Below, piece after piece: positions 1 through 44,215 of a stretch of DNA of 64,000 nucleotides (its first letter is position 1; each line of letters begins with the position of its first letter). Below the pieces are notes generated by a model. The model was not told the origin of the DNA. It saw nothing but the letters and a program-made list of their open reading frames with translations, and searched no databases. The translations under genes and the position numbers were made by a program. This stretch comes from Morchella semilibera (taxonomy: Eukaryota > Ascomycota > Pezizomycetes > Pezizales > Morchellaceae), in the NCBI GenBank assembly GCA_009192285.1, contig CM018603.1, positions 919,307-983,306 of the forward strand, written 5' to 3'.

Positions 1-2487
1 TTCCAGGCCAAGCGTAGTAGGTTGATATCCGTGGACTTTTCAAGTGAGAAGGAGAAGGAGTTGTAGTAAAGAGGTTTTTCTGAATCAACGAAGCGAAGAA
101 TCATTCCTTCCTGGAGAGCCGTGCAAGGAACAATAGCCTCGACCTGATCTGGCTCAATGTCGAGGCGTTCACAAACCTCAAAGGAACCCTTGTTGGCAAA
201 TGCTGTGAGTTTTTGATTAATTAATCCTGTCCTTGCAAGTTCCTGTGAGCTGTTGTTCTCTCCATTGCTCAATTCTGCCGCCAGTTGCTTCACGCCCGGA
301 TCTGTCCCAGAATGTTAGTACTGTAGCAACCATAAACCGATTCGGGGACTTACATTTCATAACAAGAGAAACGGATGATGCAAAAAATCCATCTTTCTTC
401 AATCTGCGCGCTAATCCAACAACGGAAACTGAATCCAACCCAAGTTCAAACACAGTCGAAGAATGCTTGATCTCCGAGGCTTGGAATCCAGTCATTTCGG
501 CTAATATTTTTCGGATGCGTATCTCTCCTTCAGTCCAGTTCCCTTCATTAGCATCCTCTCTTCTTGAGATCTGCTGAAGAAGCGCAAGAGATGTCTCCTG
601 GTAGATTGCTGTAAGTTTTTTGTTATCAACCTTGTTGTTCACCGACAACGGCATTTTTGATATGGGTAAGAAATGAGTAGGAACCATGTATACAGGTAGT
701 TTTCTTCTGCACCCATCGGCCAAGATTGGGATAACCCTGTGATATTCAGGGTCATGTAAGACAATTGGGTCTGCTGTGTTAGAGGTATTGGTTGTCCCTA
801 GTACAATAAAGGAGACTAGTTGATCCTTCTGCTGTTTCGGGTGTCTTAAAACCAGTGTAGCGACTGATTTAACCCGTGGGTCTGCCTGTTTCAAGGTCTC
901 GTTGATCTCTCCAATTTCAAGACGCTGTCCGCGGAGCTTGACTTGATCATCTGCTCGTCCTGTGAAATCAAAAGTGCCATCGTAGAGAATGCGCACCAAG
1001 TCACCAGTTCGGTATATCCTATCTATATTAGTAGGTAAGGCTTTAACGGCGGTGGTTAATCATACCTTGTATCGAATTCTTTAAGGACTGGGAACTTCTC
1101 CTCAGTGAGAGTTTTCCTGTTGAGATATCCACGTCCAACCAACTTTCCAGAAACACAGAGCTCACCAATCGCTCCTCTGAGAACAGGTCGGCTTGTATTG
1201 GGTGTTAAAACAAAAGAACCAACGTTGTCAAATGCAGGGCCGATGTTGGAGGGTTTTCCGTTCGCTGGGACCCTAGGGTACATTGTACACCCGATAGTGA
1301 CTTCTGTAGGTCCATATCTTGTAGTTTGTTAGTAGGATTTCCTTTGGAATAGATGATGATTCTTACCCATTATAAATTACTCCTGTCTCGCCCCAAGTGT
1401 TCAAAATCTCCTGTTTCAACTGTTCACCACCTGTAATAAAAACGCCTCGACATAACGAAGGACAATCCTCAGGGCGGAGCAACGCCGCAAGACTAGGTGT
1501 TAGATCCAAGTGGGTGATCTGAAGCTCGTTGATTGTGAGCGCAAGATCTTGGAAAATGACGTCTCTTGGCGCCGAAGTCACACACATGCCCACACTCCAG
1601 CTGAAATATTGCTCCATAACACTGACATCGAAGTGGAAAGATGCGAACTGAAGGAAGCGTGATTCAGAATCCCAATGACCGTTGAATAACCGCTGGAAAG
1701 CAAGCATCGCCTGTACAGCGTTTTCGTGTGTGAGCTCGCAACCCTTCGGCGTTCCAGTAGTACCGGAAGTGTATAGGCAGTAGCAAAGATCTTGCGGTGT
1801 GAGGTCTTGAATAAAAGGGGTTTCGGATGAGGATATCTTGACCTCCGTGTCACTCTCCAGGGATACAACGTTTACTTTAACTTTGCTTCTAAGTTCCTGA
1901 GCGTATTTATCCATTGTCAAAACACATTTAGCGCCCGAGTCTCCAACAATAAAAGACTTTCTGTCGATAGGTGCATTATAATCAAGTGCCATGAACGCGC
2001 ACCCGGCCTTCAGAATCCCAAGAATAGCGAACGATGCCTCAGGGCACTTCTCGAAGCAGATAGCAACGATTTGTCCAGTTTTGACTCCAAAGTTAAGCAG
2101 GTAGTTTGCGACTCTGTTGCCCTCTTCGTCAAGTTGGGCGTAGGTCCATGTTTCTTTGGCTGCGTAGCCTTCTTGGATCGATGTAGCAAATTCAAAGGCA
2201 ATTTTGTTTGGTGTCAGTTTTCGGTATTTTTCAACGAATTTATGTAATAAGGTGGTGTCTGTAGGGATTTCGTCGATTACTGGTGGGGTACATGAGAGTA
2301 ATGCTGGAGGGAAGCTCAAATACTCTGTGCTAGGGCTATTGGGGTTCTGCAAAATGTCTACCAATGCAGCCTCAACTTGCTGGACGAGTAGCTGTGTCTG
2401 CTCCTTGGGCATAACGCTGTCTCTGCATGTGGCTCGGACGAGAAGGGAATCATTATCAGTTGGTTCGATTTCCAGAGAAATTGTGTA
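1..2487 (-). other. NRPS module 4 (A4-T4 and start of C4)
   Basis: A4 reads CLYTSGTTGTPKG, then YNG/YGPTEVTIGCT across intron 1318-1366, then YRTGDLVRI after intron 1019-1065, and DDQVKLRGQRLEIGE. The A10 region reads NNKVDNKKL, slightly off the usual GKVDKK. T4 carries ELGLDSVSVVGL. A longer intron (203-353, 151 bp) precedes C4, of which only the start is in the window (IVPCTALQEGM). A fourth A domain separates this enzyme from three-A-domain SidC forms and fits the NPS2-like four-A-domain architecture I recall for this family. Confidence 0.85.
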
Positions 2488-5400
2488 CTAAATCCCATAT
2501 TAACTAATATCTCCACAGAGGCAGGAGAGTTAAAACTCACATCAACGAAGGCATCCTCCTCCACCACTTCCCACGTATTCTTTCTACTAGATGTTGTCTT
2601 CTGATAAACAAAGATAGTGTCAAAGAAAGACTCTTGGCGATGGTCAAACCACCCTTGGATATTTCGAAGAGGTGTATGCTGATGCTTCAGTGTTTGCGCG
2701 TTGCTACGTTGCAAAGCTAACGCAAGTTCGAGGTTTGTACCAGTTAGTAGGCACAGGGAAGGTACAGTTGTGATACACGGGAAAGCCACGTTCTCAGCCC
2801 CGGCAATACCAGACCTCCCAGAAAGAACTATTTAAAGTCAGAACTAATATCTCTAAAATGAAAAGGACACTAAGCCCTTACCCATTCCCATCGTGACAGC
2901 ATTATCCCCCATATACGCCGACAGCACCCTTGCCCAGGCGGCTTGCCCTGCTGCGTTCACCGAGATCCCCAGTTTCCGGCATCCGCTCTCAATCTTCGAT
3001 AAACTCCAACCCGCTTCTATTGAGCAAACATGACTGGAAGTACTTTTGATCCTGACGGGACACAAGTTCGGGAAACGTGAGATGCTGGTTCCCTCAAGCT
3101 GCTTCAGCCAGAATGTCCTGTCCTCTTCGATAACCTTGTCATCTAGCGAATGCTTCACAATATTGCTAAGGATAGAAAAAAACTTGGGACGAGAAGCTAT
3201 ATGCTTTCTAGAATACTCGGAAAAAACGTCGTCAAAGAAAAGACGTAATGTTTCGGCGTCAAACAGAGCGTGGTGTGCAGAGAACAACAGAAGTGACCCT
3301 CCGTTTGTTTCTCTAATGATGGTGGCACTCCACGGAGGGAGGTGAAGATTTTCAAGTGCGTGGATAGCCTTGAGCTCTTTTTGTGCAGAAAGAAAATTCT
3401 CATTCTCATCTCGGCTATCCACTATAACCCATGGTAGGTCGGTGGAGCCCTGTTTATAAACGATGGTAGCGAACGCATGAGTGTTGTGTTCAACCTCAAC
3501 GAAGCCAGCACGGAGCATGTCGTGAGAGTCAAAAGCAGCATTCCAGGCCTCGCGAAGGCGGTCCAAGTCAACATTCTGAGGTAGTTGAAAGACAGTATGA
3601 TTGAAGTATAGACCACCCTGAGAACGTAGGAACTGTGATAGCATTCCTTCCTGTGACGGTGTGCATGGGAAAACTCCGGTGATCTTGTCTTTTGTGATGC
3701 CGGTGTCATTGAGAATTTGATCTATAAATTGGTTACTGAAGTTCACCAGATAATTTCCAGAAGCCTGATCGTTGGCCCTAGTATTAACGCTCTCTGCAGT
3801 GATAGATTTTGATAATTGTTTGATAGATGGTCGCTAAGTGATGTTAGTGACATCCTCTCTTACTACTTCAATGAACTCACCTCTAAAATGTCCAAAACTG
3901 AGATTTCCAAGCCGACGCGCTTCAACTGCATCGCAACCTGAGCCGCACTGATACTATCAAGCCCTATCTCGTAAATAGTCGATGCCCGAGAAATTTGCTC
4001 GATCGGAACTCTAGATATTTGAGAGAACACGTTTCTAATCTTCTTTTCTTCCTCAGTCCACATGCTCTCTTCCTCCTCCACACTCGCACCTCCAAATGTC
4101 TGGATGTCCTGTTCCTGGAAAAACGATGCTAGCGCTTTCTTATCAACCTTTCCTGCTGCTGAACGCGGGACATGGTCAATGATCAGAATAACCGCCGGTA
4201 TCATATATCTTGGCAGTTTTGCTCTCGCCACCTTCAACGCTGCACCTTGGATTTCCTCGGTTTGCGGGCCGGTCTTCAATACTTTAGGCTTTGTTCCATG
4301 CTGCTTCCTACCCTCGACTGCCAAGAATGACACTAGCTGCTCCTTTGCGCCCTCGCTGTGCTTAGCTACAATTGTTGTCGCATCCTTAACATCCTTATGA
4401 CCACTCCTGAGAACAGAGCTGATCTCATCTAGCTCAACACGTAGCCCGCGGATCTTCACCTGGTCGTCTGCACGCCCGATAAACTCAAAAGTGCCATCTC
4501 CGAGCATGCGGACAAGGTCGCCAGTTCTGTATACTGTGTTTCCCTCTAGTTGAATAAATTGGCGCTTGGTAAGTTGTACATTGTTGTGGTATTCACGTGC
4601 TACTTGTGGGCCTCCGATACAGAGCTCGCCGCTACCAAAAGTAGGGACAATGTACTCCCCGCCGCGGGAAAGGACGAAGAAACTTGCTGTGGGAAATGGT
4701 TTACCGATATTGGAAGACTTTGTATATCTGTTTGTGGGTATAATTGTACAGCACATTGCAGCCTCTATAGTTCAAAATTAGAATTATTTAGACTTGGTAA
4801 AGATCATTGAGTTGAAACATACCAGTAGGTCCGTAAGAGTTGATGCATCTTCCATCCCAATCGTCGACCACCTTCTGCGGCATCGCCTCCCCAATACAAT
4901 AAAGCATCTCAACACTCGCTAGATTCTTTGCAACAAGCGTGGCAGCCACAGTGGGTGTCAAGTCCAGAAGGGTGGCTTTAGTAGTCTTGATGGTTCCTTC
5001 CAGATCGCCAAGGAGATGTTTTTTTGCGGCAGAACAGAGGGTGAACCCATAGCTCCACGCCATGAAACAGTCGTAGTAGCACATATCAAAAGTGGTGGCA
5101 GCAAATTGGAGAAGTTTTGAATCGGGCTTCCATGGTATGAGTGATTTTGAGGAGCGGAAAGTTTGCACGGCACTCTTAATTTCGAGAGAGACGGCTTTGG
5201 GCTGACCAGTGGATCCTGATGAAAAAATTAATATATGTTTGGTAATCGGTTACTTATATGGACTTACCAGAAGTATACAGCCTGTATGCCAAACACCTGG
5301 GCGTAAGACCCCTAATATTCAAATTCGTAACCGGTTGAGAATCCATGACGCCGCTCTCCACATCCACCATTGCCACACGTCCCATACCTCCCGCCGTTGC

Positions 5401-8400
5401 AGCAGTAACAAGAACAACCCTCGCCCCAAGTTCCTCGACCATAAACATTTTTCTCTGCTCCGGCAGCGTTGGATCGATCGGCGTGAATGCACACCCGGCC
5501 TTCAACACCCCCAAAATACATATATAGAATAGTGGCGATTTCTCCAAGCATATCGGCACAGCCTCATCACGCTTCAGCCCTAGGGAGGCAAGATAGTGGG
5601 CTACCCTGTTTGCGGCTTCGTTGAGCTCGCGGAACGTCCAGCTTGTGATCTTGCCGTCGTCACCGAGGAACTCGAGCGCGATACGTGATGGGTTCTCGCG
5701 CGCATGACGCTCAAAGTCGGAGTGTAGTAGGTCGTGGCTGTCACCGTCAAGAACAAGTGGTTTGCTATTTGCTCGCGCTAGAATTGATGAGTCGAATGTT
5801 TGAAAGTTTACTGCGAGCTCGTTGGGATGCTGGAGGGAGTCAATGATCGCCGCGTCAAACTGCTGAATCATCACACCGGCTTGCTCCTCAAGGATGATAT
5901 TTCTGCCCTGTGTTAATGCTACTCCTACTTAGTTGGGAGACAATACAATGCTACACACCGACGGAAGTAAAGCACAATTTCTAGGCTGTTGCTATTGCGA
6001 TTAGGTACAAGCTCGACAACGACGGAGAACTACATATTCACTATCAGTAACAAGACCCAGGCTGTGTTCTTATTGATTTTTAAGAACTCACATCCATCTC
6101 TCCACGATCATCGATTTCTTCCCAGAGGTCTGTTTTTGCCTCGTTCGCGTGCTGCAAGATAAATAGGGTGTCAAATAGACTCTGACCCTCGGTCTTCAGC
6201 GTGTTCATGATCCTTCTCAATGGGGTTAGCTGGTACGGCAGGATGTCTGCATTAAGACTCCTGATGCTGTTCATAACCGTCAAATTAGTAGCACCTGGGA
6301 CTAGCTGTACCCTCAATGGGACTGAATTGAAACATGGGGCAATAACGTCTTCCACACCCTCCACGGGGATAGTTCTTCCGCTCACGATATTACCAAAACA
6401 AATATCGGCCTCGCCGGAATAGGCAGACAATAACCTGGCCCACCCGGTCTGTCCTAGTGCCAATAACGAGGTTGAGATCTCTTTGCAACCGTCTTCGATC
6501 TCGCTCAGTGGCTTGGAGCAAGTCATCTTTGTTGCTGTCATACCTACAAGTTTAGTTTTCTCTTTGAATAGCGCTGTCTTACCTGTTAGATCTGGGAATG
6601 TAGATGCTTCGAAACCGGTAAGTAAGTCTTTCCAGAATGCATCTGATGCATCTAGGTCAATGTTCTCCATATACTCCAATACCTGGTCAAAGGGGTGTCT
6701 GATTGGGAGATCCAGTCCCAGATAAGCACTGCGCACATCTTCAAGCAGGAGACCCATTGCATAACCGTCGTAGAGAGAGTGATGGAATGACATGACCAAC
6801 GTTGCCCCCGCGAACAGCGAAAACGCATATGGAGCGCTGTGAATACTCATAGACTGCGAGATCTCATTGATGCGCTGGTCGACTTGCTCTGGAGTCGCCT
6901 CCGTCTCGAAGGTAGTCCATGGAAGCTCATGCTTCTTTAGAATAACCTGCGCATACGCATGTCTCGAGTCCTCAGTAACGCAGAAGCAGGTCCTCATGAT
7001 ATCATGTCTCTCCACCATGAGCTCCCATGCCTTTCTCAAGCGGACAGGGTCGGCCCGGAGTTTTAGAACAGTGTGGTTGTAATAGGCGCTCACGTCAACG
7101 CCCTTCTTTTGCGTTAACATGGCCTCTTGGAGTGAGGAGCAAGGTAGGATCTTCGTGATGCCCTCTGCGGCTATGCCGAGCTGCTCAAGGGCTGTCGGCT
7201 TGACACTCTCCGCAAACGCCTTTAATGAACTCTCTCGGGTAACAGTAGTAGTGGCGGGCCCGTCGCTCTTTTTGTCAAGAAGGGTAGCAAGAGCGCCAAC
7301 AGTGGGGTTCTTCATGATCTGTGATACGTCCAATCTCTTGTGGCCTGCCTGCATAATGCGGTTCGACAACTGAATCACGGAAATTGAATCCAGTCCGAGC
7401 TTGAAGATCGATGTCCCTCTGCGAATCTCATCAACAGTCACTTGCGCAACATCAGCCACTATCCTAACGATCTCCATCTCAACCTGTGTCCACTCTGCAT
7501 CGTCCATGTTGCCAGAGTCCTCGCTATAAGACTCGATGGCAGCGGTGTCAAGATCGAAGAACACCTTGGAGAGAACCTTTTTTGTCAACCTTTCCCGTTC
7601 CCGTCATGGGGATTGACACCACGGGTAGCAGCACCGCAGGGACCATGTACTCCGGCAGGGACCCAGACAGAGCCTTGAACAGTGCACCCAATGTCTTGCG
7701 AACGTCTTGATCTGCCTTTACGATGTCAAAGCCTTTGCCCTGGTGAGATGCAAGAAGAACGTATGCAACAAGCTGGTACGGGTCTGTGGGAGACTTCCTT
7801 ACTGGGATAGCAACGGCATCAAGAACGGTATCCAAGCGTAGGAGAACGGAGGTGATCTCGCCGAGCTCGATGCGATGCCCACGGATCTTTATCTGGTCAT
7901 CGGTACGGCCGATAAACTCGAGTGAGCCATCAGAGAGGAGACGCCCGATGTCGCCGGAGCGGTAGAGGCGGCCGTAGATGGGATGGGTGGGGAATTTCTG
8001 GGCAGTAAGCTCGGGCTGCTTGAGATATCCACGTGCCTATAATACATAGATATTAGGATTTATGCTCGAATAATCATCATTTGGACCAGGATACTTACGA
8101 CTTGAGCACCGCCAAAACAGAATTCTCCAACTGCACCCCTGGGGAGCAGGCAGAACTCATTCTCATCTTGAGAGATTACAAAGGTGGAAGTGTTCGCGAA
8201 TGTTTCTCCCATAGTATTTATATGATCCTCCTTCCTCAGATTCGGCCTCACCGTGCAAATATCCGCCATCTCACTAGGCCCATATCCGCTCCAGAGTCCT
8301 TTCCCAGTCCAGGACTCAAAAACCCTCCTATTGACGCATTCTCCGGCAGTAACAAGGAACTCAACAGACGGTACATTATCAGGGTTGACCAGCGCCGCAA

Positions 8401-11400
8401 CGGTAGGTGTCATACTCAGATGTGTGATCTTGAAGGCATTGATGGCGCTCTCAATATCTCGCAGCAGTACATCCTTCCTCGCCACACAGAGTGTCATGCC
8501 CATGGCCCAAGTAAAGAAGATTTCAAACACGGACACATCGAATGCAACGGTGCAGAACTGTAGAAGCCTTTTTCCCACCGCTGCCGGGTACATCCCCCGG
8601 AGCACTCTGACATGGTCCACAATCGCGTAGTTCTCCACTAGCACACCTTTTGGCTTCCCTGTGCTTCCGGAGGTAAAAACAGCATATGCAAGATCTCTCT
8701 CCGACCTCTGGATATTCGGGTTTGCCTCAGAGTACCAGGAGGTGTTGGCAGTATCTACACAGACTACCTTGACGCCCTGGGGGATACCCGAGAGTGATGG
8801 GGCGAGGTCGCTAGTGGTGAGGTGAATGCGGATATCGCCGCTTTCAATAATCTGGCTCTTTCTTTCGCTCGGGGTCTCAGGGGTTATGGGAGCATAGGCA
8901 GCACCGGACTTAAGAATGGCAAGGATAGAGATGTAGAGGGTTGGCGATTTCTCCATGCAAACGGATATAAGTGTGTCCGGTTTTGCGCCAAGAGAGAGTA
9001 AATGGTAGGCGAGCTTATTGGCTTGCGAACTAAAAGCGCTGTAGGAGAGTGTTGTAGATTCGGTAGTAGTGCCAATGATATCATTTGCAAAGTCAATCGC
9101 GATTGCATTGGGGTTGCGGGAAGCGGCGAGTTCAACGAGATGTGAGAGGGAAGGCGTAGAAGCCATTGAGGGTATTACGGGGTGAGGGTTTTCGATAGAG
9201 AGTGCAGATGGGGGGAGGGATTGGAGGAGGGCTGTAAGGGTCTGGTCGGGGTGGGAAATGATCGAATTCACAAACTGGTCGAGCTGGGTTAATATGAGTT
9301 TTGCATGTGCAGGCGGAAGAATGGAAGTTTGGTATGTTGCGCGCAGAGAAATATTGGAAACACCAGGCGTAACCTCTAGGAGAATCGGGAACTGCAGGTA
9401 GTGTAATGTTAGTATTTATTTAGCAGTCAATCACAGGATATCACTCGCCTCTAGCATGTCTTTGATATCGACAATTTTCACGCCTTCTTCTTCTTCAGAG
9501 GCCAAACTCTGCTGCCAGACAAGCAAACTCTCAAAAAGCTTTCCTTCACCACCCCAGGCCTTTTTCACCTCTCTCAATCCAATCTCGTTTCCTAAGACCT
9601 CCCTTCCGCGCTTCGCAACCTCGGAAACAACCTCTCGAACACTTTTCTGCCTCCGGACGTCAACCCGAACCGGTGCAGTGACAATCAACGGCCCGATTAC
9701 GTCCTCGACTCCCGTCATGGCGGCTGTCCTGCCAGAGAGAACATTTCCGATAACAACATCACTCTCGGCAACGTATAACGACCAAAGTATGGCCCACGCA
9801 GCCTGAACCAAGACCACCGGTGCCACGCCGAAATTTCTCGCCGCGCCCTCATATTCCCCTCTCATAATACTCATAGTAGTAGTCTCCTGGAGAACCTCAT
9901 CAACCACGTCGCTCTTTCCAGTCAAGCACGGGAATGACACAGGCTCGACCCCGGACAGCGTCTTTCGCCAGTATTCGATACTGCTAGAGATGTCTGTGGC
10001 TAGCTCGCGCTCTACAACAAGCTGATACTGTGGTCGCGGGGCTACAGAGCGCCCGGAAAGATGTGCGGAAAGATCGGACATGATACTATCCCAGCACCAG
10101 CCGTCGTAGAGGGCATGGTGGATTTGAACGCTCAGTTGGTCGTTGACGAGGGCGACTCTAAAGGGCGGTGAGAGTAGCTGGGGGACAGTGACGCTCCACT
10201 CCTTCTCGATCTTGTCGGATACGGTGAATTGAGACGGATGGGAGGTGTGGTACACTACCTGCCCGAACCCTTCTCCGAGGACCGCAAATCCGGTGCGCAG
10301 GATCTCGTTTGCATCGATGATTCTCCTGACAGCGGCTTCTACAGCAGCTGCAGTTTGGTTTGGGGGTAAAGAGAGTAACATCCAGTTACAGTATGCGGCG
10401 CTATCTTGTGCGGTTTCCGCAAGCATAGCAGCTTGTACGGATGTGCATGGAATAACCTTCAGCACGCTCTTGTCCTCGCATAGTTCTTTAGAAGAATTTG
10501 AGACCTCCTCAAACCACCGTTGAATAGATATGTTTGTGCCCTTCGGGAGTGCACCTACGCTCTTCTCAATACCAGCTGCAATGCCAGAGATCGTGTCGGA
10601 CCGGATCACATCCACCGTCTCCACCTCAATGCCCCGCTTCCGGAGCGCGATAGTAAGACGGATCGCCTGCATAGAGTCAAGTCCACTCGAAACAAGACTG
10701 ATCTCTTTTCCGGGCGTGATGCCAAGAAGAATCGATACTTCATGTGTGATCACTCGCTCAACGGCGTTCAGCTCTTCGGATACTACTTTGGTCTCAACTA
10801 CTCTAGCCTTGTATTGTGCCTCTAGGAACTTTCGGTCCGCCTTTCCAGAGGCAAGGCGGGGGAGTGCGGGGAGAATAATCATGTCCCCGGGGATCATATA
10901 CGCCGGTAGCCATTTCTTGCATGTCTCAGTGATTGCCAATTTCGAGGTTGCGCCGCCGACCCAGATAATGAGAGCGTTCTTGATCACGTTGGCCACACAT
11001 GCTTTGACTCCGGGAGTCTTGAGCACGACTTCCTCAATCTCTCCGAGTTCAATACGTTGCCCACGCAGTTTAACCTGACCGGCCCCAATACGGCCTAGGC
11101 ATTCGAGTCCTCCGCTCGGGAGAACCCGACCACGGTCACCGGTCCGGTATAGCCGGCCGAAGCGGGAAGATTTGATGAATACCTCGCGGGTCGTTTCCGG
11201 GCGGTTGATATACCCATCTGCCAACTGTGGCCCTCCGACCACAAGCTCACCCACACAACCTTTGGGGAGAACTTCAATTTCACCACCCTTGTAGGGTGCA
11301 ATGACGAATGTCGACACAGTCTCGAAGGGCGTGCCAATATCACCAATTCTTTCAACCGCTGTAGAAGCAGTGCAGTGGATTGCCGCTTCGGTAGGCCCAT

Positions 11401-12808
11401 ACATACCCACCAGCACGTCCCCCCACATATCCACCACTCCCTGTGTCAACATCTCTCCAATTGTCAACAGGCACTTCAAACTGGGAATGTTCTCGCGCTT
11501 CCCCAGCAAGCCTCCCGCAACCGTCGGAGTAAGCTCAACAACATCCACGGCCATTCTCCTAACAACGCCCGGGAGATCACCAAGCATAGTCGCGCGCTCA
11601 CATCCAACCAGCACAATTCCACGCATGAGCGGGAAAAACATCTCAAAAACAAACACATCGAACGTCGGCGCCGCCTGCTGAAGCCACCTCCCGACACTTT
11701 TTGGTACAAGGGGGTCCTGCGCTAGCAAGCTCTGCGCCGCGGCGTAGTGGCTTATGAGGACTCCCTTGGGCGTGCCAGTGGTCCCGCTAGTGTACATTAC
11801 ATACGCTGCGTCACTCGGTGAGATTGACGTGGGGAGGTCCATAAGGCTGGCGAGTGAGAATGTAGGAGTGTCATCGTCGGGGGTGACGCAGGGGAGGTTT
11901 GGAACAGGAGGTTTGGAAGGGTCGCAGACGATACATGGCGCTTTGACGTCGTCGACGATAAACTGTAGCCGCTGGGGAGGCGCATCGAGGGGTAGCGGGA
12001 CGAATGCGCACCCGGCTTTGAGAATACCAATTAGGGCAATGTAGAGAGCTGGCGACTGTGGGAGAAGCACTGGAATTAGACGCTGGCTGGAGGTGGTGTG
12101 CGGAAGGAGCTTTAGCGCGAATTGAGTGGAGAGAATGTCGAGGTCGGCGTAGCTGTAGGTGCTTTTAGAGGAATTAGAGTGGAGGAATTCGAGCGCGGGG
12201 AGGCTGTCGTGGGCGGAGAAGGTAATGAGATCGTGGAGAAGAGTAGGCCCGGGTAGATGTCGCGGGGAAGGATTGAGAATCGAGAGGGTATTTTCAGAGT
12301 GAGAAGTGGAGGTAAAAAGGTGGTGAAGGTGTGTACAGATCATGTGAATATAGCTCTCAGGTACCAAAACCGTGGAGATATAGATATATGCCGTACGAGA
12401 GCTTTCGTCTACGGTCAAATATAGCTGTGAATCTAGGGGCTATATTAAAAAATCCCGCATTAGAATCAAGTTCCTCTCTAGAATTGCGCCGCATTAAACT
12501 CTTACATTAAAGCTTTCGGAATCAAAAAAGACGCCCGTCCACCTCCCGCCTGAAGGGTTGTCGACACTCCCCTCTGAAATCCAGCTCACACCTCCGTCCT
12601 CTGCAAACTCCACTCCAGAGGTTACCCCATTTACTCTGAATACCACAGTGTCGGTACCGCTGTATCCGCGGAGAAGGTTCGCCCATGATAGCACTATCTG
12701 GTCCTTCGTGCAACCCTGAGGAAGAGCAATTGGTGCGCTGAGCGTATCAGGAGCACCGTGAAGGGTATGGAGGACCGGGAAGGCAGTGAAGCGGTAGTGT
12801 TTAAACAT
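1..12808 (-). CDS. sidC: Ferrichrome-type siderophore NRPS (SidC/NPS2-like), 3' end outside window
   Basis: Large nonribosomal peptide synthetase that should assemble an intracellular or secreted ferrichrome-type hydroxamate from N5-acyl-N5-hydroxyornithine and small amino acids in the cytosol. Four A-T-C modules can be read, then the gene runs off the left edge inside the fourth C domain; this family usually ends in extra T-C pairs. The start at 12808 opens with a short N-terminal region typical of SidC proteins (FPVLHTLHGAP, then LSWANLLRGYSG). I infer 13 introns: 12440-12505, 9392-9448, 8037-8098, 6030-6091, 5903-5958, 5216-5267, 4765-4822, 3834-3880, about 2834-2880, 2488-2540, 1318-1366, 1019-1065 and 203-353. 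Introns at each C-to-A junction sit at matching places, which suggests module duplication. A single-base frameshift lies at 7578-7583. Nearby sidA and iron-type GATA sites support the role. Family assignment is firm; the peptide product is not readable from sequence alone. Confidence 0.93.
2541..6029 (-). other. NRPS module 3 (A3-T3-C3)
   Basis: A3 is split by three introns: 5903-5958 before it, 5216-5267 inside the YTSG/STGQPK loop, and 4765-4822 inside SYGPT/EAA. YRTGDLVR, DDQVKIRGLRVELDE and AAGKVDKKAL are present. T3 carries EIGLDSISAAQV. C3 begins after intron 3834-3880 and reads VFPCTPSQEGML. Its active-site motif is HHALFDA rather than HHxxxDG. The last C3 part (VLSGRSGIAGAENVAFP) follows the intron near 2834-2880. 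Confidence 0.87.
6092..9391 (-). other. NRPS module 2 (A2-T2-C2), contains a frameshift
   Basis: A2 shows AYAVFTSGSTGKPKG, a GYGPSEMADIC motif (Ser in place of the usual Thr of GPTE), YRSGDIGR and DDQIKIRGHRIELGE. Intron 8037-8098 interrupts A2 after GGAQV. A2 ends at GTGKVDKK, where one extra A in a six-A run shifts the frame (T run 7578-7583 on the plus strand). The next frame continues the expected linker, then T2 (KLGLDSISVIQL) and C2 (HHSLYDGY, GNIVSGRTIPVEGVEDVIAP). The exon 6092-8036 has length 3n+1, consistent with one surplus base. Confidence 0.87.
7578..7583 (-). other. Single-base frameshift in NRPS homopolymer
   Basis: On the minus strand the A2 end reads GTGKVDKK and then leaves frame inside a run of six A. 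Using five A would continue directly into KVLSKVFFDLD and the T2 domain. Coding similarity is strong on both sides and no splice sites fit, so this is a +1 indel. It is either a sequencing or assembly error or a recent inactivating mutation. Confidence 0.85.
9449..12439 (-). other. NRPS module 1 (A1-T1-C1), single exon
   Basis: A1 spans about 12250-10850, with the YVMYTSGTTGTPKG nucleotide-binding loop, MYGPTEAAIHCT, YRTGDRGR and GQVKLRGQRIELGE motifs. T1 follows at about 10780-10560, with SSGLDSMQAI carrying the phosphopantetheine serine. C1 spans about 10470-9450 with an intact HHALYDG active-site motif and a VLSGRTAAMTGVEDVIGP block. The reading frame is open from 12439 to 9449 without introns, and all core motifs are intact. 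Confidence 0.9.
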
Positions 12809-15736: not shown

Positions 15737-18700
15737 ATGGCCGCACCCCAGCGCGAAGGCAGTCTTGACCTCCCTCACCTTACCACTACCGCTACCCAAC
15801 CTGATCCTACGCTCTCTCTCCCGCCTTTACCTACCACGGAGCCTACGTCCCCTTTGCCCACGACTCCCGTTCCACTCTCCCGCCTGCACTCTAGCTACCT
15901 GACCCTATACCGACCCCTCACCTCCCTGAAGGACCGCTGTATCCTTGTCGTAGCTATTATCCTCTCCCTCGCTGCCGGCGCACCACTTCCCATCATTGGT
16001 GTCATCTTCGGAAAGATAATCAATTCTTTCCCGCCGACCGAAGATGAGATTAACACACGCATTGCCCAGCTACTCGGCGTGGCGGTGGCTTACTTCTTCA
16101 TAACGTGGGGGTGGGCGACAGCCTGGGGTATGGTCGGGGAGCGCGTGGCTAGAGGATTACGGGTACGGCTATTGCACAGAGCTATTGGGATGGAGGTTGG
16201 GTGGTGGGATAGTGAATCTCTCGATGTGTGTACCACATGTGTCCCCTCATCACGTCCCCGCTACTCACAAGGCTTTCAAGATTGCGCATCGCCTCACGGC
16301 CGACACACAAACAATCCAGCTTGGAACGTCCGAAAAGGTCGGGCTTTTCCTCCAGTCCGTTGCCTATTTCATCGCGGCCTTTACCGCCGGTTTCATTCTC
16401 AATGCTCGCCTTACGGGGATCCTTTTTGTTGGCGTCGTTCCTGCAATGTTCATGGTCGTCTACGGTGGCTCCAAGATCATTTCTAAATATGCGAAGCAAG
16501 CTGTCGACTACTCTGAGAAAGCTACAGCTGTCGCAGAGGGCGCAATCACCGCCGTGCAAGTAGTACAGGCTTTTGGAGCGGCTAATTTGCTTGCCGGAAA
16601 GCATTGGGAGTTAATGGGACCTGCGGTCGCGAGTGGTGTTAGAAGAGCCGTCGCGGGTGCGGCGATGTTAGCGTTGGTCTTCTTCGTTGCGTAAGTGTTC
16701 TACTATTTCCGAAACCTAACCCAGGCTACTAATTGGCTTAAGTAATCTGTACTAATATTATTACTAAAAATAGATATTCGGCCAATGCTCTTGCATTCTG
16801 GGAAGGCTCCCGCCAGATCGCAAAAGGTCTCTTTAAGGGTGGCGAGGGTGCTGGAACTGTCTATACTGTTGTTTTCCTAATTCTTGATGCCTCGTTCGTT
16901 GTAGGCTCTTTTGGTCCGTTCCTCCAAACATTCGCACTTGCGGCTGCTGCCGGGGAGAAGATCATTGGATTGCTCGATAGCCCGGAGACGGGAATCAATG
17001 TTTATTCCGAAACTGGAGACCCTATGCCGACACCGCCGGAAGCAAATGATATCAAACTAGAGAATGTTACTTTCCGTTACCCTACTAGAGAGGTAGAGGT
17101 TGTAAGAAACGTTAGCATCACCTTCCCGGCGGGGAAGCTCACGGCAGTTGTCGGTGCCAGTGGCAGCGGAAAAAGCACAGTTGCAGCGCTGTTGATGCGA
17201 TTCTATGACCCCGTCTCGGGGCGGGTCACTATCGGCGGCCATGATTTGAAGGAACTGAACCTACGTGACTACCGCCGCCACCTCGCACTCGTTGACCAAG
17301 AACCTATCCTCTTCGCCGGAACAATTATGGAAAACATCCAGCACGGGCTCCTGCACAAAGGAGATATGACCCTAGAGATAAAAGAGCAACTCTGCTTACA
17401 GGCTGCGAGAGGCGCCAATGCATATGACTTTATCAGCGCGCTCCCGGACGGGTTCAACACCAAGATCGGTGGCAGTGGTGCTACACAGCTCTCCGGGGGA
17501 CAGAGGCAGAGAATTGCATTAGCGAGAGCTCTGGTGGCTGAACCTCAACTATTGGTGTTAGATGAGCCGACTAGTGCACTTGATGCTAGCAGTGAGGCAG
17601 TAATCCAAGATGCACTTGAGCGAGCTCGTGGGGGGAGCGGGAGAACAATGGTAATGATCGCACATAGACTTGCGACGGTGAGAGGGGCAGATAAAATTGT
17701 CGTTATGTCTCTTGGAACTGTGGTTGAGGAGGGCACACACGAGGACCTCGTGTCTCGGAAGGGCGCATACTACGAGCTAGTAAAGGCTCAGAAGCTTTTG
17801 GGCGGGAGCAGTTCGGCGAGCAGTCTCAGCTCGGCCAAAACAAAGGTCGAAGTAGAGCCTGAACGAACTTCCGAGAAAGGAGACATCGAGACTACAAAGG
17901 AAGAGGTTTCTTTGGAAGAAGATACTCCCATCTCTTATTCCTCCAAACAGCTCCTGAAACGTTGTATAATGATCAGTAGGCCCGACTGGCCCATCGTAGC
18001 TCTAGGTCTTTGCGCAAGCATAGTAACCGGCGCAATCATTCTTGGGGAGTCCATCGTCTTCGGAAACCTGATCTACATCCTAAACTCAAAGTCTTCAGAA
18101 TCTATGCAGTCCCGCGCCGACCTTTTCTCACTGATCTTTTTCGTTCTTGCCCTGATCGCTTTATGCGCCTATACCATCTCCGGGACTGCCTTCGGTGTTG
18201 TTTCTGAACGTCTCATTCGCCGCATCCGTGACCGCTCCCTGCGCACAATCCTCCGTCAGGACATTTCATGGTTCCAAACACCTGCTCACTCTCCCGGAGC
18301 GCTCATGAGTATGCTCAACATGGATACTGGACATCTTTCTGGCCTTTCCGGTGTCATCCTGGGTACCATCTTCTCTGTCGCAACCTCCATGGTCGGCGGT
18401 ATTATTCTCGCACACATTGTAGCCTGGAAAATTGCCATTGTCCTCCTCGCTGCGGTACCCATCATGGTCGTTTCTGGCTTTCTGCGTCTCCGTGTCCTTG
18501 CCAAATTCGAACAACGCCATGAAACCGCCTACCTTGATGCCGCCACACTCGCGACCGAAGCCTGTACCGCCATCCGCACCATCGCGGCACTGGGGCGTGA
18601 GCAAGATGTTTCCAGACTCTACAACGAGGCTGTTGATAAGCCGTATCAAGAGAGTCTGCGCTTCATTGTACAAGGAAACCTCTGGTTGGCGTTTGCGCTC

Positions 18701-19814
18701 GCAATCACCTACTTCGTATACGCCTTAGCATACTATTGGGGGAGCAAACAGGTGCGCGAGGGAAACTATGGGACCTTGCAATTTTTTATTGTATTGCCCG
18801 CTTTGCTATTCAGTGCTCAGGCTTCGGGGCAGATGTTCTCACTAGCCCCGGAAGTGACAAGAGCAAAAACAGCGGCAATCTCTGTCTTCAAGCTCCATGA
18901 CCAGAAGCCGACTATCGATCTCGAAGTTAAGAACAGTGCCGCTGGTACTGCCGTTACTCCCGCGCCTGCATCGACGCTCGCTTCATCAAAGAAAAGTAAT
19001 GCCACCGCCGGCAAAGTAGAGTTCCGCAACGTGAACTTCCGCTACGCCACGCGCCCCAATATCCCCGTCCTCCAAAACCTCTCCCTCACTATAAAATCCG
19101 GCCAATTTGTCGCTTTCGTAGGATACTCCGGAGCTGGCAAGTCCAGCGCCGTAGGCCTACTTGAGCGCTTCTACGATGTCGACAGCGGCGCTGTACTGGT
19201 AGATGACGTTGACATCAGGAATATCCCTGTTGGCCAACACCGTTCCAGGATATCGCTTGTGAGCCAGGAACCTTGTTTGTTCCCTGGCAGCATCGCGTTC
19301 AATGTTGGCCTTGGACTAGGGGAGACCAGGACCGTGCAGAAAGAAGACATAGAGAGAGCTTGCAAGATGTGTGGACTGCACGACTTTATCATGAGTTTGC
19401 CAGACGGCTACGATACGTATGTTACCCTTCATTACTAGCTATCTAATGCTGATGCGCAATGCTAACGAGCTTCATTACAGCGACTGCGGCACCAACGGCT
19501 CTCTCCTCTCCGGCGGGCAGAAGCAGCGCATTGCGCTGGCGAGAGCGCTGATGCGGGATCCCTCAATTCTGCTCCTGGACGAAGCAACGTCTGCGCTCGA
19601 CTCGCACTCGGAGAAACTGGTACAGGAAGCTATTGCGAGTGTGAGTAGAGGTAGAACATGCATTGCTGTTGCGCACAGGCTTGCGAGTATTCAGCGGGCG
19701 GACTGTATCTACGTGTTTGAGGCTGGGAGAGTGGTAGAGTCGGGGAGACATGAGGAGTTGGTCGCAAGGGGCGGAATCTACGCGGGCATGAGCAAGCAGC
19801 AGACATTGAGTTAA
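15737..19814 (+). CDS. Full-size ABC transporter, ABCB (MDR) type
   Basis: Integral membrane ATP-driven pump with the (TMD-NBD)x2 layout. The start at 15737 is followed by a Pro/Thr-rich cytosolic N-terminus of about 45 residues. Introns are inferred at 16226-16271 (an alternative acceptor at 16280 also works), 16691-16773 and 19417-19480; the exons sum to 1294 aa, the usual family length. NBD1 has Walker [10 protein letters not shown] (about residue 430), signature LSGGQRQR and Walker [16 protein letters not shown]2 has Walker [10 protein letters not shown] (about 1087), LSGGQKQR and [12 protein letters not shown]. All catalytic motifs look intact in both halves. It is divergent from the siderophore NRPS, and ABCB proteins recur in fungal siderophore loci, so export or vacuolar transport of the siderophore or its breakdown products is the likely role. 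Substrate and membrane location are inference. Confidence 0.92.
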
Positions 19815-26729: not shown

Positions 26730-28596
<1,867 letters not shown>

Positions 28597-31847: not shown

Positions 31848-32479
31848 CTAAGCCCTTTTCTTTCCCTTAACAGCCTTAGGGGCCATTTTGGCCTGAATGC
31901 GGCAAGACATATCAATTGCCATGAACCCAACTATCACCAATAATTAGCTTCAGTTTCAAATTATACGCCCACAACAAAGGTTGCACATACAGATAGCGGC
32001 AAATGGCGCATAGAACCCCAATAGAACATATTTCTGCATATCCGTCATATCACCATCCTTCCAGATGGCCCAGCAGCTGGTCAAAGTAGTTAAGAACCCA
32101 ATAGATCCATATGCCAACGCGCGCGCCGGGAACTTTGGGTTTTCTATTTTTCCGCGCAAACACCCAATTAGCCGCCATTCAACCGGAGCAAAACAGAGGC
32201 CAACTCACCACTAGGGATCGCGGTCAGGAACCATATTGTTGTTGGCAGCTGGTACAGAGCCTCGATGGCCACGAAGGCCGCAAACCACGGCTCAAACTTG
32301 ATCATGAGTTGATCATTGAAGGTGGTGAGGTACCATGTGTGGTTGTCCTTGAGCGCCTGGGGGAGAATGGCCTTGGGCCACATTGGGATCAGGTCCATGA
32401 AGATCATGGAGGTGCTGAACATTGCGGAGAAACAGAAGTAGAATAGGTCCTTTGGACGGGAACTCATTGGGGTCGCCAT
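31848..32479 (-). CDS. EXPERA-domain membrane protein (TMEM97/sigma-2 receptor-like)
   Basis: Small multipass membrane protein of the EXPERA family, which includes TMEM97 and EBP and is linked to sterol handling in the ER. Start at 32479 (MATPMSSRPKDLFYF); introns at 32144-32208 and 31931-31990; three exons give 168 aa. Conserved features are FMDLIPMWP in the first helix region, NDQLMIKFEPWFAAFVAIEAL, and LAYGSIGFLTTLTSCWAIW. The C-terminus is lysine-rich (APKAVKGKKRA), consistent with an ER-type tail. The phases of all three exons agree. Whether it has isomerase activity or is only receptor-like cannot be judged here. Confidence 0.82.
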
Positions 32480-33420
32480 TTTTTTTTTTATTTTTTTTTT
32501 CTGCTGCTGGGGTTTGTTTGTTTTCTGGGAGGAGGATCTGGTTATTTTCTGATGAGGGTGGGGAATGGTTCGGGACTGAAATGATATGGGATGGAAGGAA
32601 GGGTACTGCTTATTTGTATTCTGGTCTTTAATACTCCTGAGGCTCTGCGGCGCAGCGCACGGATCACAAGGGTTCCGTGGGTTAGGGGTAAGCGCTTCAC
32701 AGAATGTCACTCGTGGCTTGGAGAGTCTTGGTGCTGATACTTCAGGAATCTGCAAGTAGCATTCCTTAACCCGGTATATTGCAGCGCATACTCTCAAACT
32801 TATCTGGCATGGCCACGTATCGTAAATACAAATAGGTATATATTGATTATGAACTACATACTATGCTCATGGGAAATCGGCATGAGACTTTATAGAAAAC
32901 TTTTTGAAGCCGCTGCCGCACCTCCCGAACGCCCACCCTTGAAAAAAAAAATGAAAAACATTAATCACATTGGATACGCCGGGGATACCAAGGAAACCCA
33001 TAACAAAGGAAATTAGACGAATCTATCAAAGAGTGTGCCCCCCCCCCCTCCCTCCCCCTCCCCGCCCGGGTCCCGACCCGACATCAATATATATATATAC
33101 ATATATACAATATACAGTCCCTAGACTAAATATCAACTATGTCGCACTCAGTGAGCTTTTGCTTTGGCCGATAGGTGCACCATCCCCCCCTTGTGTGCCC
33201 GTCGTACTCAGCATCTTTTTGTTTCAAGGGGCCGGAAATGCAAAGCGCTGGAGGCGGGTACCGCCGATGCGAACTGTACCGGGGCAAAAAGTTTAAATCG
33301 TTCGATGGCGAGTGACGTAACCCAGAGCAAAGAGGGCTCAACCCATACAGTGTCACAAGGTGCCACCATCATCATAACCTCCCATGTGTAGCGTATCGTC
33401 TCGATTGTCCCCAATACGCC

Positions 33421-36400
33421 TCATACATCCAGATTCTCGATGTGTTCCGTACTTTTCGACCGTTTCGCACCCAGACCCTCTTTAACATAATCCACCATAT
33501 CCTTGGCCATTGGTGGGACATCATCCAATACACCTTGTGTATTGCCCCTAACCGGACCTCCGAATCGCTGGTTCGGGGATACATAGCTGTAAATGGGGAA
33601 CACCAAGCACAGACCAAAGAGAATTGCTGGAACTAGCATGGCAAAGGAATATCCCCTAGCCTTCGATACGGCATAGTAGATGTTTAGAAGCGCCGGCCCA
33701 CCGCAAATAGCTGTGACGAGGTAGACTGAGACGGATTTTCTGTGGCGGCCGACGCCACGAAGACCCATTCCAAAAGTGATGGGGAAGATGCTGGCCTGGA
33801 AAAAGCGGTTCAACACCATCATAATAGCAGCTTCCCTCCCGGTACATGTCATCGCGAATGCGGCGGTTATGACACAGCCAATTGAAGTGCAGGACAAAAC
33901 AACGCGGGGGCATAGCCAGAGAAGAGTAATACTACCCGTGAAGCGGCCAACTGCAAAAAGGCCGAAGCCAAGCATTTCCCAGTTCATTTCAACCTCGGAA
34001 CTGCTGGAAAGTACGAATTAGTCCAACTCTCTCACCAATTGCAGTAGGAGGGGTTAGCTACTCTATCCCGGCGGAGATGAAGTATTCCTCCCAAAACACA
34101 TTAAACATCTCTTGGGCGCCAAGATAACAAAAGATGGTGATAACTCCGATTATTGGCCCAAGTGCGGACTCAGTTCTCCAGAATTTTGGACCATCACAGA
34201 TTGTCGAACCGAGGCATTCATCATCACTATGTGGGTGTTAGAAAAAGACCAGAGAACTAAAAGGCTTGGTTGCGCCTACCTTATCTCTGGGAGCGGGAAA
34301 TAATAAAAAACCACTGCAAGGGACACCATGAACAAAATAGTTGCCAAAAACACCCAATTCATATCCGCAACCCCCTGGTTGTTGGAGGTGATTTTCGAGA
34401 AGGCTGGATAATACTCCAAAAGTGATGCACAAATAGTGCCAACTGCCTGGAATCCTTGTGCAAAGCAAACTCTGGATTCACCCATTCCCTCTGGGCCAAC
34501 AAGAATAACATATGGATTGGCAGCAGTTTCGATTCTGTAGTAAAATCAATCAGTACACAGAGGTTCGGGAATTTTTGGAGATAGGACTCACGTTGAAATA
34601 CCGGCTCCCATAATGATTGCTGCCACGACGAATCCAGGGAATTTTCCCAAGGTCCCGGCTGGCCAAAATACTAAACTGCCGGCAGTGTATGTGAGTATCC
34701 CGGTAATAAAGGTAGCTTTAAAACCGTATTTCTTAAGTAAAGGTCCCGAAACGAATTTGGGCGTAAATGCATATGGCCTATGAGACATTAGTAAAGCGAA
34801 GACCAATGTGTCCCCACTTGGATAGAGGGAAACCTACGCAAAATAAACACCCTCTAGAACCAAGGACTGAGAAGTCGAGAAGTTATAGAGCACGGCGAAT
34901 TTGCTCCTCAAAACCCCAATAAGCCCATACGAGAATCCCCAAAAGAAGAAAAGAATTGTAACAAGGACCAAGGGTTTGTAAACCTGTCTTACAGAGGCCC
35001 CGACAGGACCGAATTGTGTTGCAGAAGTAGTTGCAAACAATTCTGTCGTATGAGTGCAGGTGCCAGACGATGCGGTGCCACGCCTCATGTTGGCGCCGAA
35101 ATTGTTGCGATCCTGTAATGCAGACTCATTGCTCGGTGCACCACGCAGAGCCAATTCATGTGCTCCGGGAAGCGCGCGGGCAGTAGAATACCTTCTGGCG
35201 TTGTTGCTGCGATCGCCAATTTCGCGGACGGAGGAGAAGCCCGGGACCAAGATTACAACCAAGGGCTTTAGCATTGGGATTGAAGCACACACAATGCCAA
35301 CGTTGACCTCAATGGCTGACCACATGAACGACGAGGAGACATCCGCTGTCATGTAATCTCAGATATTAGTTTCATTCATGCCACCTTGAATAACTAATTT
35401 TCTACTTACCGTCAAAGTTACCCGAAAGTACAGCCTTGTCAAGGAAGTAGATTCTGACGACACCAATAACTACGACACTTGGGTTCTCAATTAGTAATTA
35501 TATTATTAAATAGAGAAGGGACTCACTTACAATCCGCCACCGGCAAACAAGCAGACAACGACTATTTTCTCTTTCCGAGGTAGGTTCAACGATGTCAAGA
35601 CTGGCATTGGTAGCAATAATATTGCCAGGTCGGTTATTATGTTCAATGGCGCCGAGGCATAAAATATCGTGATCACATTCCTGCAGTTTGATCCTAATGG
35701 GGAGTTATAATCCGTCGTGAAGGCCGCAGAAATCTATGAGGGGCATCAAATGTGAGTTTACTTTTATGATAACTTTGTTCTGGGGGACTCACAGGTTGAC
35801 ATTGAAATAATATCAGCATCGTCATTATAAGTCCCCCAATTCCAACGACTGCCATGGTAATCCAGGCGCCCCATTTAAGTGGCTTGAAATTTTTGAAAAG
35901 ACTCAGGTAGAAAAACAGTATTGATATCTTAGTTGCCATGTACGTTGGGTTCTATTGCAACATTAGCGAAATTTATTTCCACATAATCCAGTAATTTCTA
36001 TGAGGATATACATATAGTAACACTATCGCAAATCGTGCCTACAGGAAGATGTCAGTAGTGTTCTCTGTTACGAGAGAAATAACCATTCACCTTTCTTCTT
36101 GCCATTTGGTCCTCAGGAAGCTCAATAAAAGGCCCATTACTTCCAAGGCCATACTTTGCCCCTAAAGTCGCAACTCGTCAGTAATTGTATGGTGTCTTCT
36201 CAAAGGGTGAAGAGTTTACCTATAGCTAAGGAGACCGTTAACCCAAATGCCAGAATCTAATATTTTCGTGATCAGTGATTGAAACAAAGATAGTAAGATA
36301 ATCCCGCTTACCCATGACACCAAAATAAGCCAATCATCCACAGTAATCCGTTTTCTTACCAAGGTCCTAGATACGAACCGCAAAGAAACGGCTATGAACG

Positions 36401-36470
36401 AGACTGTGGTGATAACTATGGGAACGACAAAGACAGTTTCGCTCCTCATCCATCCCTGGGATTCGCTCAT
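33421..36470 (-). CDS. Fusion of fungal rhodopsin-type (SAT4) 7TM domain and FucP-type MFS transporter
   Basis: One reading frame in 12 exons (36312-36470, 36220-36256, 36091-36161, 36012-36038, 35793-35951, 35531-35733, 35410-35477, 34838-35345, 34592-34777, 34280-34534, 34062-34226, 33421-34003) totals 2421 nt, 806 aa, with every junction in phase. Residues ~12-280 are a complete SAT4/Pth11-related rhodopsin-type membrane domain: RKRITVDDWLIL, AKYGLGSN, NPTYMATKISILFFYL, LNIITDLAILLLPMPVL, WSAIEVNVGIVCASIPMLKP. A polar linker (~280-362) follows. Residues ~363-780 are a complete FucP-like MFS sugar transporter (LVTILFFFWGFSYGL, IETAANPY, FAQGFQAVGT, YLGAQEMFNVFWEEY). The junction lies inside one 508-bp exon with no stop, so the fusion needs no splice guess there. 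An internal Met (FGANMRRG) could start a separate transporter. GAL7 and GH53 genes lie downstream. Sensor-coupled sugar transport is inference. Confidence 0.8.
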
Positions 36471-42402: not shown

Positions 42403-42894
42403 GACCACCTTTTCCGCTAATTCACTATGGCATTAGCACTCATGACTATCTCCCTCCTCTCTATCACCGCTCATTGACGAGGGACAAATTACCAGCCTCG
42501 GGTCTCCAACACATATAAGCCACCATCACCAGCACTAGTACCTAGCACAGGGGCAAACAAACGCAAGCGCAAAAGCAGTGCTTCTTCTTCTTGTCGAGCT
42601 AACTGTTGACGGGATCGGAGACACCTCCGGCACCTCAGCCGATCCTTGCGTCTACACGTGGGAAATTACCCGGGAATCAACCACCCGCGCCCCTCCTCAT
42701 CTTCGATCCACCCCCCCCCCCCACCGGGCCCCCCCCCCCACCGGGCCCCCCCACTATACTCCGACATTAAATGGCGCGGTAACTCAACCCCACCTTTTCA
42801 TCGGCTGAAACCTCACGATATTGTCTTTATTATAAGAGAGAGATATCGGAATCCAGGTATCTTGACTCTCCTCTCGCCACCACACCCATACATC

Positions 42895-44215
42895 ATGTCC
42901 GAAGAAAAGATTCTCGACGACATCTCGCACCGCCGTTTCAATCCTCTGCGCGGGTCCTGGCTCCTCGTCTCTCCGCACCGTACAAAGCGGCCATGGCAGT
43001 ATGTTTTGCGCTGAATACATGTGGGAATATTCGCTAATGCAGATCGATGGGCGCACTAGAGGACAGCAGGAAACGCCGTCGAAGGTTACCCTCCCAGAGT
43101 TCGACCCGACATGTTACCTCTGTCCCGGTAATAAACGCGCTGCAGGCGACGTCAACCCGAAATATGAAGAGACTTTTGTATTTGTCAATGATTACAGCGC
43201 CGTGAAGGAGGAGCAGCCAGACTATGAGGAGCCGCTTGCTGAATCTGCAGATGGTAGTGTTCCCCTCTCCGCTCTTCACCAGCTGCATCATCGCATCTAA
43301 CCCAACCTGCGGCAACAACAGACAAGTCGCCCCTCCTCCTGCGCGCGGCGGCCACAAAGGGGAAATGCTACGTGATAACCTTCAACCCGACGCACAACCT
43401 CACGCTGGCCGATCTCGCACCCGAGGAAATCATCCCAATCATCAACACCTGGACGTCACTCTACGTTTCGCACCTCCCAGCCTCGCACCCGCACTATGCG
43501 CCCAGCCGGCAGATCGCGGCGCCAAAGGACCAGTACACATACATGCAGATCTTCGAGAACAAGGGCGCGGCCATGGGCTGCTCAAACCCGCACCCGCACG
43601 GGCAAGCCTGGACCACCATGGGCACCCCCGAGGAGCCCTCGCTCGAGCTCCAGAACATGCTCGCCTACAAGGCCAAGCACGGCTCCGGCCTCCTGAAGGA
43701 CTATGTCGACCTCGAGATCAGGAAGCAGGAGCGTGTCGTGTTTGGGAACGCACACTTTGTGGCGCTGTGCCCGTGGTGGGCCGTGTGGCCTTTCGAGACC
43801 ATGGTGGTGTCGACGCGGGAGGTGCCGTCGCTGGCAGACCTGACGGATGAGGAGAAGGCAGGGCTGGCAGAGGTCGTTGCGCAGGTGACGAAGCGCTACG
43901 ACAACTTGTTTGAGACGTCGTTCCCCTATAGCATGGGGATACACCAGGCGCCGTTGGTGTGCACTGAGGAAGAGAGGGCGGCGTGCCATCTCCATCTCCA
44001 CTTTTACCCGCCCCTGCTGAGGAGCGCGAGCGTGAAGAAGTTCTTGGTGGGGTATGTAATTCCCTTGCGTTCTGGTGGTGGTGGTTAGTTGCTGACTGGG
44101 ACGTATGCACAGGTACGAGTTGATGGGGGAGCCGCAGCGCGATATCACGCCCGAGCAGGCGGCGGAGAGGCTGAGGAATCTCAAGGGCGATGAGGTATAT
44201 AGGAAGTATTTATAG
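42895..44215 (+). CDS. GAL7: Galactose-1-phosphate uridylyltransferase
   Basis: Leloir-pathway enzyme exchanging UMP between UDP-glucose and galactose-1-phosphate in the cytosol. Start at 42895 ([18 protein letters not shown]); introns at 42999-43059, 43254-43321 and 44052-44112; four exons give 376 aa, the normal length. Visible motifs: RPWQGQQE spanning the first intron, the zinc-binding pair in CYLCPGN (about residue 54), and the active-site HPHGQ with its uridylylated histidine (about 189-193). [11 protein letters not shown] and a histidine-rich [13 protein letters not shown] follow. The C-terminus ends DEVYRKYL. The third exon has strongly GC-biased third positions. It lies between a FucP-type transporter fusion and a galactanase gene, both plausibly concerned with galactose-containing sugars. 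Confidence 0.95.

Follow-up and report, generated by a model that had tools for sequence, protein, structure and literature searches.

The window analysed here is a stretch of 64,000 nucleotides of Morchella semilibera DNA (contig CM018603.1, positions 919,307 to 983,306 of the forward strand). It holds a gene, called A below, in which a fungal rhodopsin-type seven-helix (7TM) domain and a FucP-type sugar carrier domain share one spliced reading frame. The features on which the analysis rests are the following, with positions counted from the first letter of the window.

33421..36470, minus strand: whole fusion gene A, 12 exons, 806 amino acids, stop codon included; defined by the open spliced frame and the homologous fusion B
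35242..36470, minus strand: fungal rhodopsin (SAT4/Pth11-like, PF20684) 7TM part, residues 1-276, exons 1-7 and the start of exon 8; PF20684 match and seven hydropathy peaks
34838..35345, minus strand: junction exon 8 of 508 nt, with the last receptor helix, the linker and transporter helix 1, and no stop in the fused frame
34984..35241, minus strand: linker of A, residues 277-362 (86 amino acids), predicted to be cytosolic; hydropathy, methionine positions and coding score in the fused frame
33421..34983, minus strand: FucP-type (FHS, TC 2.A.1.7) MFS domain and C-terminal tail, residues 363-806; TIGR00885, PDB 3o7q and tree
34915..34917, minus strand: codon of Gly385, at the place of Asp46 in E. 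coli FucP; alignment
42866..44085, plus strand: pieces of a GAL7-type galactose-1-phosphate uridylyltransferase, a neighbour outside the fusion; Pfam GalP_UDP_transf and GalP_UDP_tr_C

Two complete domains in one reading frame

The exons of gene A are joined by GT-AG introns of 52-64 nt, and exon 7, which starts at 35477, uses the less usual acceptor AAG. This spliced open frame reproduced the span, the 12 exons, the 806 residues and the coordinates that an earlier sequence-only reading of the locus had given. It also bears out the statement that the two domains meet inside a single stop-free exon of 508 nt, as the segment 35345-34838 runs from the last receptor helix into the first transporter helix. 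A further splice model was provided by a spliced aligner that used fusion B as the query and recovered gene A; compared with our model, it chose other acceptors before exons 8 and 12, and it proposed an in-frame intron of 117 nt within the linker (35229-35113). The presence of one frame with two complete domains in gene A is thus confirmed.

The assignment of the first domain is based on a match to Pfam Fung_rhodopsin (PF20684) over residues 30-271, with an E-value of 3.8e-62 and 210.4 bits against a cut-off of 27, covering positions 1-235 of the 237 in the model. Fusion B scores 192.3 bits against the same model, so both proteins are members of the fungal rhodopsin/SAT4 family by a match above the cut-off across nearly the whole model. 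Pfam scans of both proteins at E 0.001 gave no match to CFEM (PF05730), and the stretch ahead of the first hydropathy peak in A is only 11 residues long. It is not proven that SAT4 domains act as G-protein-coupled receptors, and the 7TM half of A and B is best termed receptor-like.

The second domain of A is aligned along nearly its full length to NCBIfam TIGR00885 fucP (residues 366-748, model positions 4-407 of 410, E 7.1e-34, 117.7 bits) and to the structure of E. coli FucP (PDB 3o7q, E 1.3e-31). The TIGR00885 score lies far below the equivalog cut-off of 280.4, so that A is not classed as an L-fucose:H+ symporter by this model. The general Pfam model MFS_1 matches A over residues 372-717 just below its cut-off (E 7.3e-07, 28.8 bits against 33.4), and B above it. 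Judged by the full-length profile together with its place in the tree described below, the FucP half of A belongs to the FHS/FucP carrier family (TC 2.A.1.7).

In both A and B, the hydropathy profile has seven peaks over the SAT4 half and eleven over the FucP half; the second FucP helix of A falls under the threshold used. Members of the FucP family have twelve helices. From what is typical of the two families, the C-terminus of the 7TM domain and the N-terminus of the MFS domain would both lie inside, so that they could be joined with no extra helix.

A second fusion gene of likely common origin

A search of the genome with the FucP half of A alone, in which 12 candidates were scored, revealed at least four distinct FucP places: gene A itself, two places designated C6 and C14, and a fourth, C9, at which the FucP exons come after PF20684 exons in the same frame. 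The last of these constitutes fusion gene B.

1748..4613 of locus L027 (G000:C9): second SAT4-FucP fusion gene B, 750 amino acids, spliced model; the same sequence occurs in L028 (C10)

The repeat of the C9 FucP on contig C10 involves two contigs whose lengths differ by 194 bases and which are identical over the 7001 bases compared; C12 and C13 share one pattern of SAT4 matches. The assembly thus seems to hold duplicate or haplotype contigs. With identical contig pairs counted once, the 60 exon-level PF20684 matches in the genome reduce to 35 places, and a FucP match stands right behind the PF20684 match in just two of them, A and B. The other two FucP places, C6 and C14, are standalone genes that start about 30 residues before helix 1. 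The C6 copy (L029, G000:C6:119500-126000, minus strand) is frameshifted mid-gene near 2320, which points to a pseudogene or a sequencing error.

The sequence-only reading had proposed a SAT4-type 7TM domain followed by a FucP-type MFS domain in one protein of about 19 helices. This architecture is supported by the gene structure and by fusion B. Homologs always present as two separate genes, which had been named as grounds against the proposal, are not what this genome contains, as B is itself fused. The two fusions have diverged, their SAT4 halves being 47% identical and their FucP halves 35%. As in A, the junction of B falls within one exon (L027 2870-3242). The linker of B is about 45 residues long and lacks a methionine, the nearest upstream one being Met269 inside the last SAT4 helix.

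Eight introns occupy identical positions and phases in A and B. A ninth pair, which immediately precedes the junction exon, agrees in phase and falls in a loop with alignment gaps; two introns are extra in A and one in B. The exons of B were modelled with A as the guide, which biases the model towards common intron positions, though the splice signals are present, and all ten introns of the B model were recovered when the aligner was run with A as the query. The common intron after FucP helix 1 also occurs in the standalone C6 and C14, whereas two introns in the FucP half are confined to A and B and absent from both standalone genes.

To place the two halves, trees were built separately. The SAT4 tree has 10 rows, namely A, B and 8 of the 33 remaining SAT4 places; it unites the SAT4 halves of A and B as sisters (100/99), and pairing the half of A or of B with the next nearest sequence, L006, is rejected (p-AU 1.2e-05 and 2.3e-04). 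The FucP halves are likewise sisters, both among 43 rows (100/99) and among 15 rows (99/96), and grouping either half with the standalone copies is rejected (p-AU 0.005 for 43 rows, 0.012 and 0.021 for 15 rows). All four fungal sequences, A, B, C6 and C14, stand together at 100/100 beside 39 bacterial rows, while C6 and C14 as one clade receive a p-AU of 0.35 in the 15-row tree.

The end branches of the fused FucP halves are long (3.77 changes per column in A and 1.54 in B, compared with 0.33 and 0.57 in the standalone fungal FucPs), and the tree program warns of long-branch effects that could pull the A and B halves together. By raw identity the FucP half of A is equally near B, C6 and C14 (35% each). 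Given this long branch and these equal identities, we count the shared introns as separate evidence. The sister relationship in both half-trees points to one fusion event before the split of A and B, and the likely history is a single SAT4-FucP fusion followed by a duplication that gave rise to both genes. As an observation in its own right, the carrier half of the fusions changes fast relative to the standalone fungal FucPs; such long branches are what would be expected if the constraint on transport had changed.

Carrier residues and the proposed function of the fusion

In E. coli FucP, Asp46 is reported to be essential for proton-driven transport, and Asp46 and Glu135 together are held to carry the proton cycle. 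We therefore compared these places across the fungal sequences and a bacterial reference set. A search of prokaryote contigs with E. coli FucP and the standalone FucPs gave 321 matching stretches, 260 of them encoding relatives; the best 80 loci are all bacterial by title, and 77 of these 80 make up the set used here. Glu135 is kept in A, B, C6, C14 and all 77 bacterial rows. The place of Asp46 is occupied by Gly385 in A and Asn343 in B, by aspartate in C6 and C14, and by aspartate in 69 of the 77 bacterial rows, with proline aligned in the other 8. Two further changes are common to A and B and occur in none of the 77 bacterial relatives. Asn156, which is asparagine in every bacterial row and in C6 and C14, is a cysteine in both fusions. 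Position 275 in helix 7 (E. coli FucP numbering), which holds valine, threonine or isoleucine in all bacterial rows and valine in C14, is a glutamate in both fusions; in C6 the frameshift makes this position unreadable.

Both fusions thus depart from the pattern of a proton-coupled FucP symporter, which has Asp46 and Glu135, in that only the glutamate is kept. The alignment suggests that A and B have retained the FucP fold and the substrate-recognition carboxylate Glu135, and that the proton-coupling carboxylate has gone. The loss of Asp46 in both proteins suggests that they sense sugar and do not pump it.

On this basis we regard it as fairly probable that gene A encodes a single fusion protein whose FucP half binds a sugar without pumping it and whose 7TM half signals, in the manner of a transceptor-like sensor. 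The fusion itself is well supported; the sensing of sugar is what we infer. The protein, if made from one transcript, would begin with a Pth11-like/SAT4 7TM domain (N-terminus outside, C-terminus inside), continue through a cytosolic linker and end in a 12-helix FucP domain with both termini inside, an arrangement in which the topologies join without a flip. The central cavity of the FucP half may still bind a small sugar (deoxyhexose, hexose or rhamnose class), and binding may change the shape of this half. It would then cycle or lock, and, with the proton-coupling aspartate lost, it would not accumulate sugar against a gradient. The change of shape could be passed through the linker and through helix contacts to the 7TM half, which would signal.

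The main rival is a real fusion that still pumps. Here the FucP half would be an active or facilitative carrier whose coupling has moved to the glutamate of helix 7, or which has none, and the 7TM half would regulate its traffic or activity. The retention of the whole domain, including Glu135, Asn139, Gln159 and Arg312, fits such a carrier; the new glutamate at position 275, common to A and B, might take over proton coupling, and the proline aligned at position 46 in 8 of 77 bacterial relatives speaks in the same direction. It is set against the loss of Asp46 in both fusions and against the cysteine that both carry in place of the otherwise invariant Asn156, and we judge it unlikely, though it deserves to be taken seriously.

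We consider it improbable that the locus yields two proteins, in which case an internal promoter and a start at Met328 would give the FucP half of A separately, and the long open frame would be incidental. Residue 328 (35088-35086), the MRRG methionine, is the sole methionine of the A linker and lies 40 residues before FucP helix 1 (the standalone FucPs start roughly 30 residues before theirs), and the in-frame linker intron proposed by the aligner was counted against a single fusion. However, no stop codon separates the SAT4 part from the FucP domain, the B linker offers no methionine, and the gene structure is common to A and B. The A linker, moreover, reads as coding. Its score in the fused frame is 0.032, on a table of 4341 codons taken from ten long open frames in the window, and the five other frames range from -0.31 to -0.09. 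None of 17 overlapping intergenic windows attains the score of the fused frame, even in its best frame, and only 3 of 2000 single-base shuffles reached it. The short B linker is not decisive, with -0.09 in the fused frame and -0.036 in one reverse frame.

A decaying gene or an assembly artefact is the least probable of these alternatives: the fast evolution of the A FucP half and the pair of identical contigs in the assembly could hint at it, but all 12 exons of A are open and fusion B, with its diverged sequence, is located on a different contig. A run-on of two genes is unlikely in view of the domain order, frame and introns that B shares and of its methionine-free linker, and, like an assembly chimera or a pseudogene, it was weighed and found weak.

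As to which sugar might be bound, characterised bacterial carriers with a FucP domain are described as taking L-fucose, L-arabinose, D-galactose, D-glucose or D-mannose (PMC5161314). The hint of galactose or fucose in the sequence-only reading came from nearby genes, and GAL7- and GH53-type genes are indeed present about 6 and 14 kb from fusion A. Their link to the fusion is weak and does not settle which sugar A binds; the neighbour found for B is a GDSL-type acylhydrolase frame that starts about 1.1 kb downstream (L027:5727-6344, plus strand).

Other genes in the surroundings were recorded as well. The next gene downstream of A, on the same strand (32171-32860, minus), carries an EXPERA (EBP) domain. 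Elsewhere in the window, NRPS modules, an ABC transporter and an L-lysine/L-ornithine monooxygenase are encoded at 6083-12439 (minus), 16742-19435 (plus) and 26730-28390 (plus), which together look like a hydroxamate siderophore cluster, and an OTT_1508-like deaminase domain lies at 61777-62310 (minus).

Relation to known sensors and carriers

Among MFS proteins, yeast Snf3 and Rgt2 are sugar sensors, and both they and the transceptors signal via a cytosolic tail or the carrier itself. A and B are unlike them in having a second polytopic domain, the 7TM half, attached. The feature in common would be an MFS carrier turned into a sensor; nutrient transceptors are treated in a review (PMC3824880).

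The Aspergillus niger protein RhtA, a member of the FHS family, is reported as an L-rhamnose carrier (PMC5161314). Compared by its description only, RhtA falls into the same MFS subfamily to which profile and tree assign the fused halves, and the standalone C14 and C6 look RhtA-like. In contrast, the fused FucP halves lack the Asp46 equivalent and bear an N-terminal 7TM domain. A similar comparison holds for the other half: Pth11-like or class XIV fungal GPCR candidates (CFEM, PF20684) are listed as a class in PMC13308352, and the high-scoring PF20684 domain of A resembles them, whereas A and B differ in that no CFEM was found and in their C-terminal FucP domain.

Hybrids of a transporter and a 7TM domain are already known. 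LYCHOS/GPR155, described as a cholesterol sensor, combines a transporter fold and a GPCR-like 7TM domain in one polypeptide (PMC11574030, PMC12716839) and is in this respect comparable in kind to A and B. In the accounts given there, LYCHOS has a 10-helix PIN-like part first, then the 7TM domain and then DEP, and is a holozoan, lysosomal protein of 17 helices. A and B are not members of this group, as their domain order and families differ in the Pfam scans: the 7TM domain comes first, the carrier is of the MFS/FucP type, DEP was not among the domains found and the fusions are fungal. We do not claim that the two kinds of fusion are homologous.

In a literature search of open-licence PMC papers, no PF20684-FucP fusion turned up among the titles and abstracts listed or in passages from papers on fungal GPCRs. 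The protein reported as a "RbsD/FucU fucose transporter" of Colletotrichum belongs to another family (PF05025). Searches with the alignment of A and B matched 136 stretches of viral contigs and 83 stretches of prokaryote contigs, with no relatives among either. PF20684-FucP proteins may be present in fungal protein databases as unremarked predictions.

We put forward, as a tentative proposal, that A and B represent a family of fungal 19-helix transceptors not described before, in which an uncoupled FucP domain serves as the sugar sensor of a Pth11-like 7TM domain, and which would form a counterpart of the LYCHOS type of separate origin. Compared with the known hybrids, they differ in both domain families, in domain order and in kingdom. 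A SAT4-type receptor tied to a carrier-type sugar-binding fold brings with it a hypothesis about the ligand and a means of testing what sets off receptors of this kind. If the proposal is true, it would add another separately built transporter-7TM fusion beside LYCHOS and would bear on how carriers turn into sensors.
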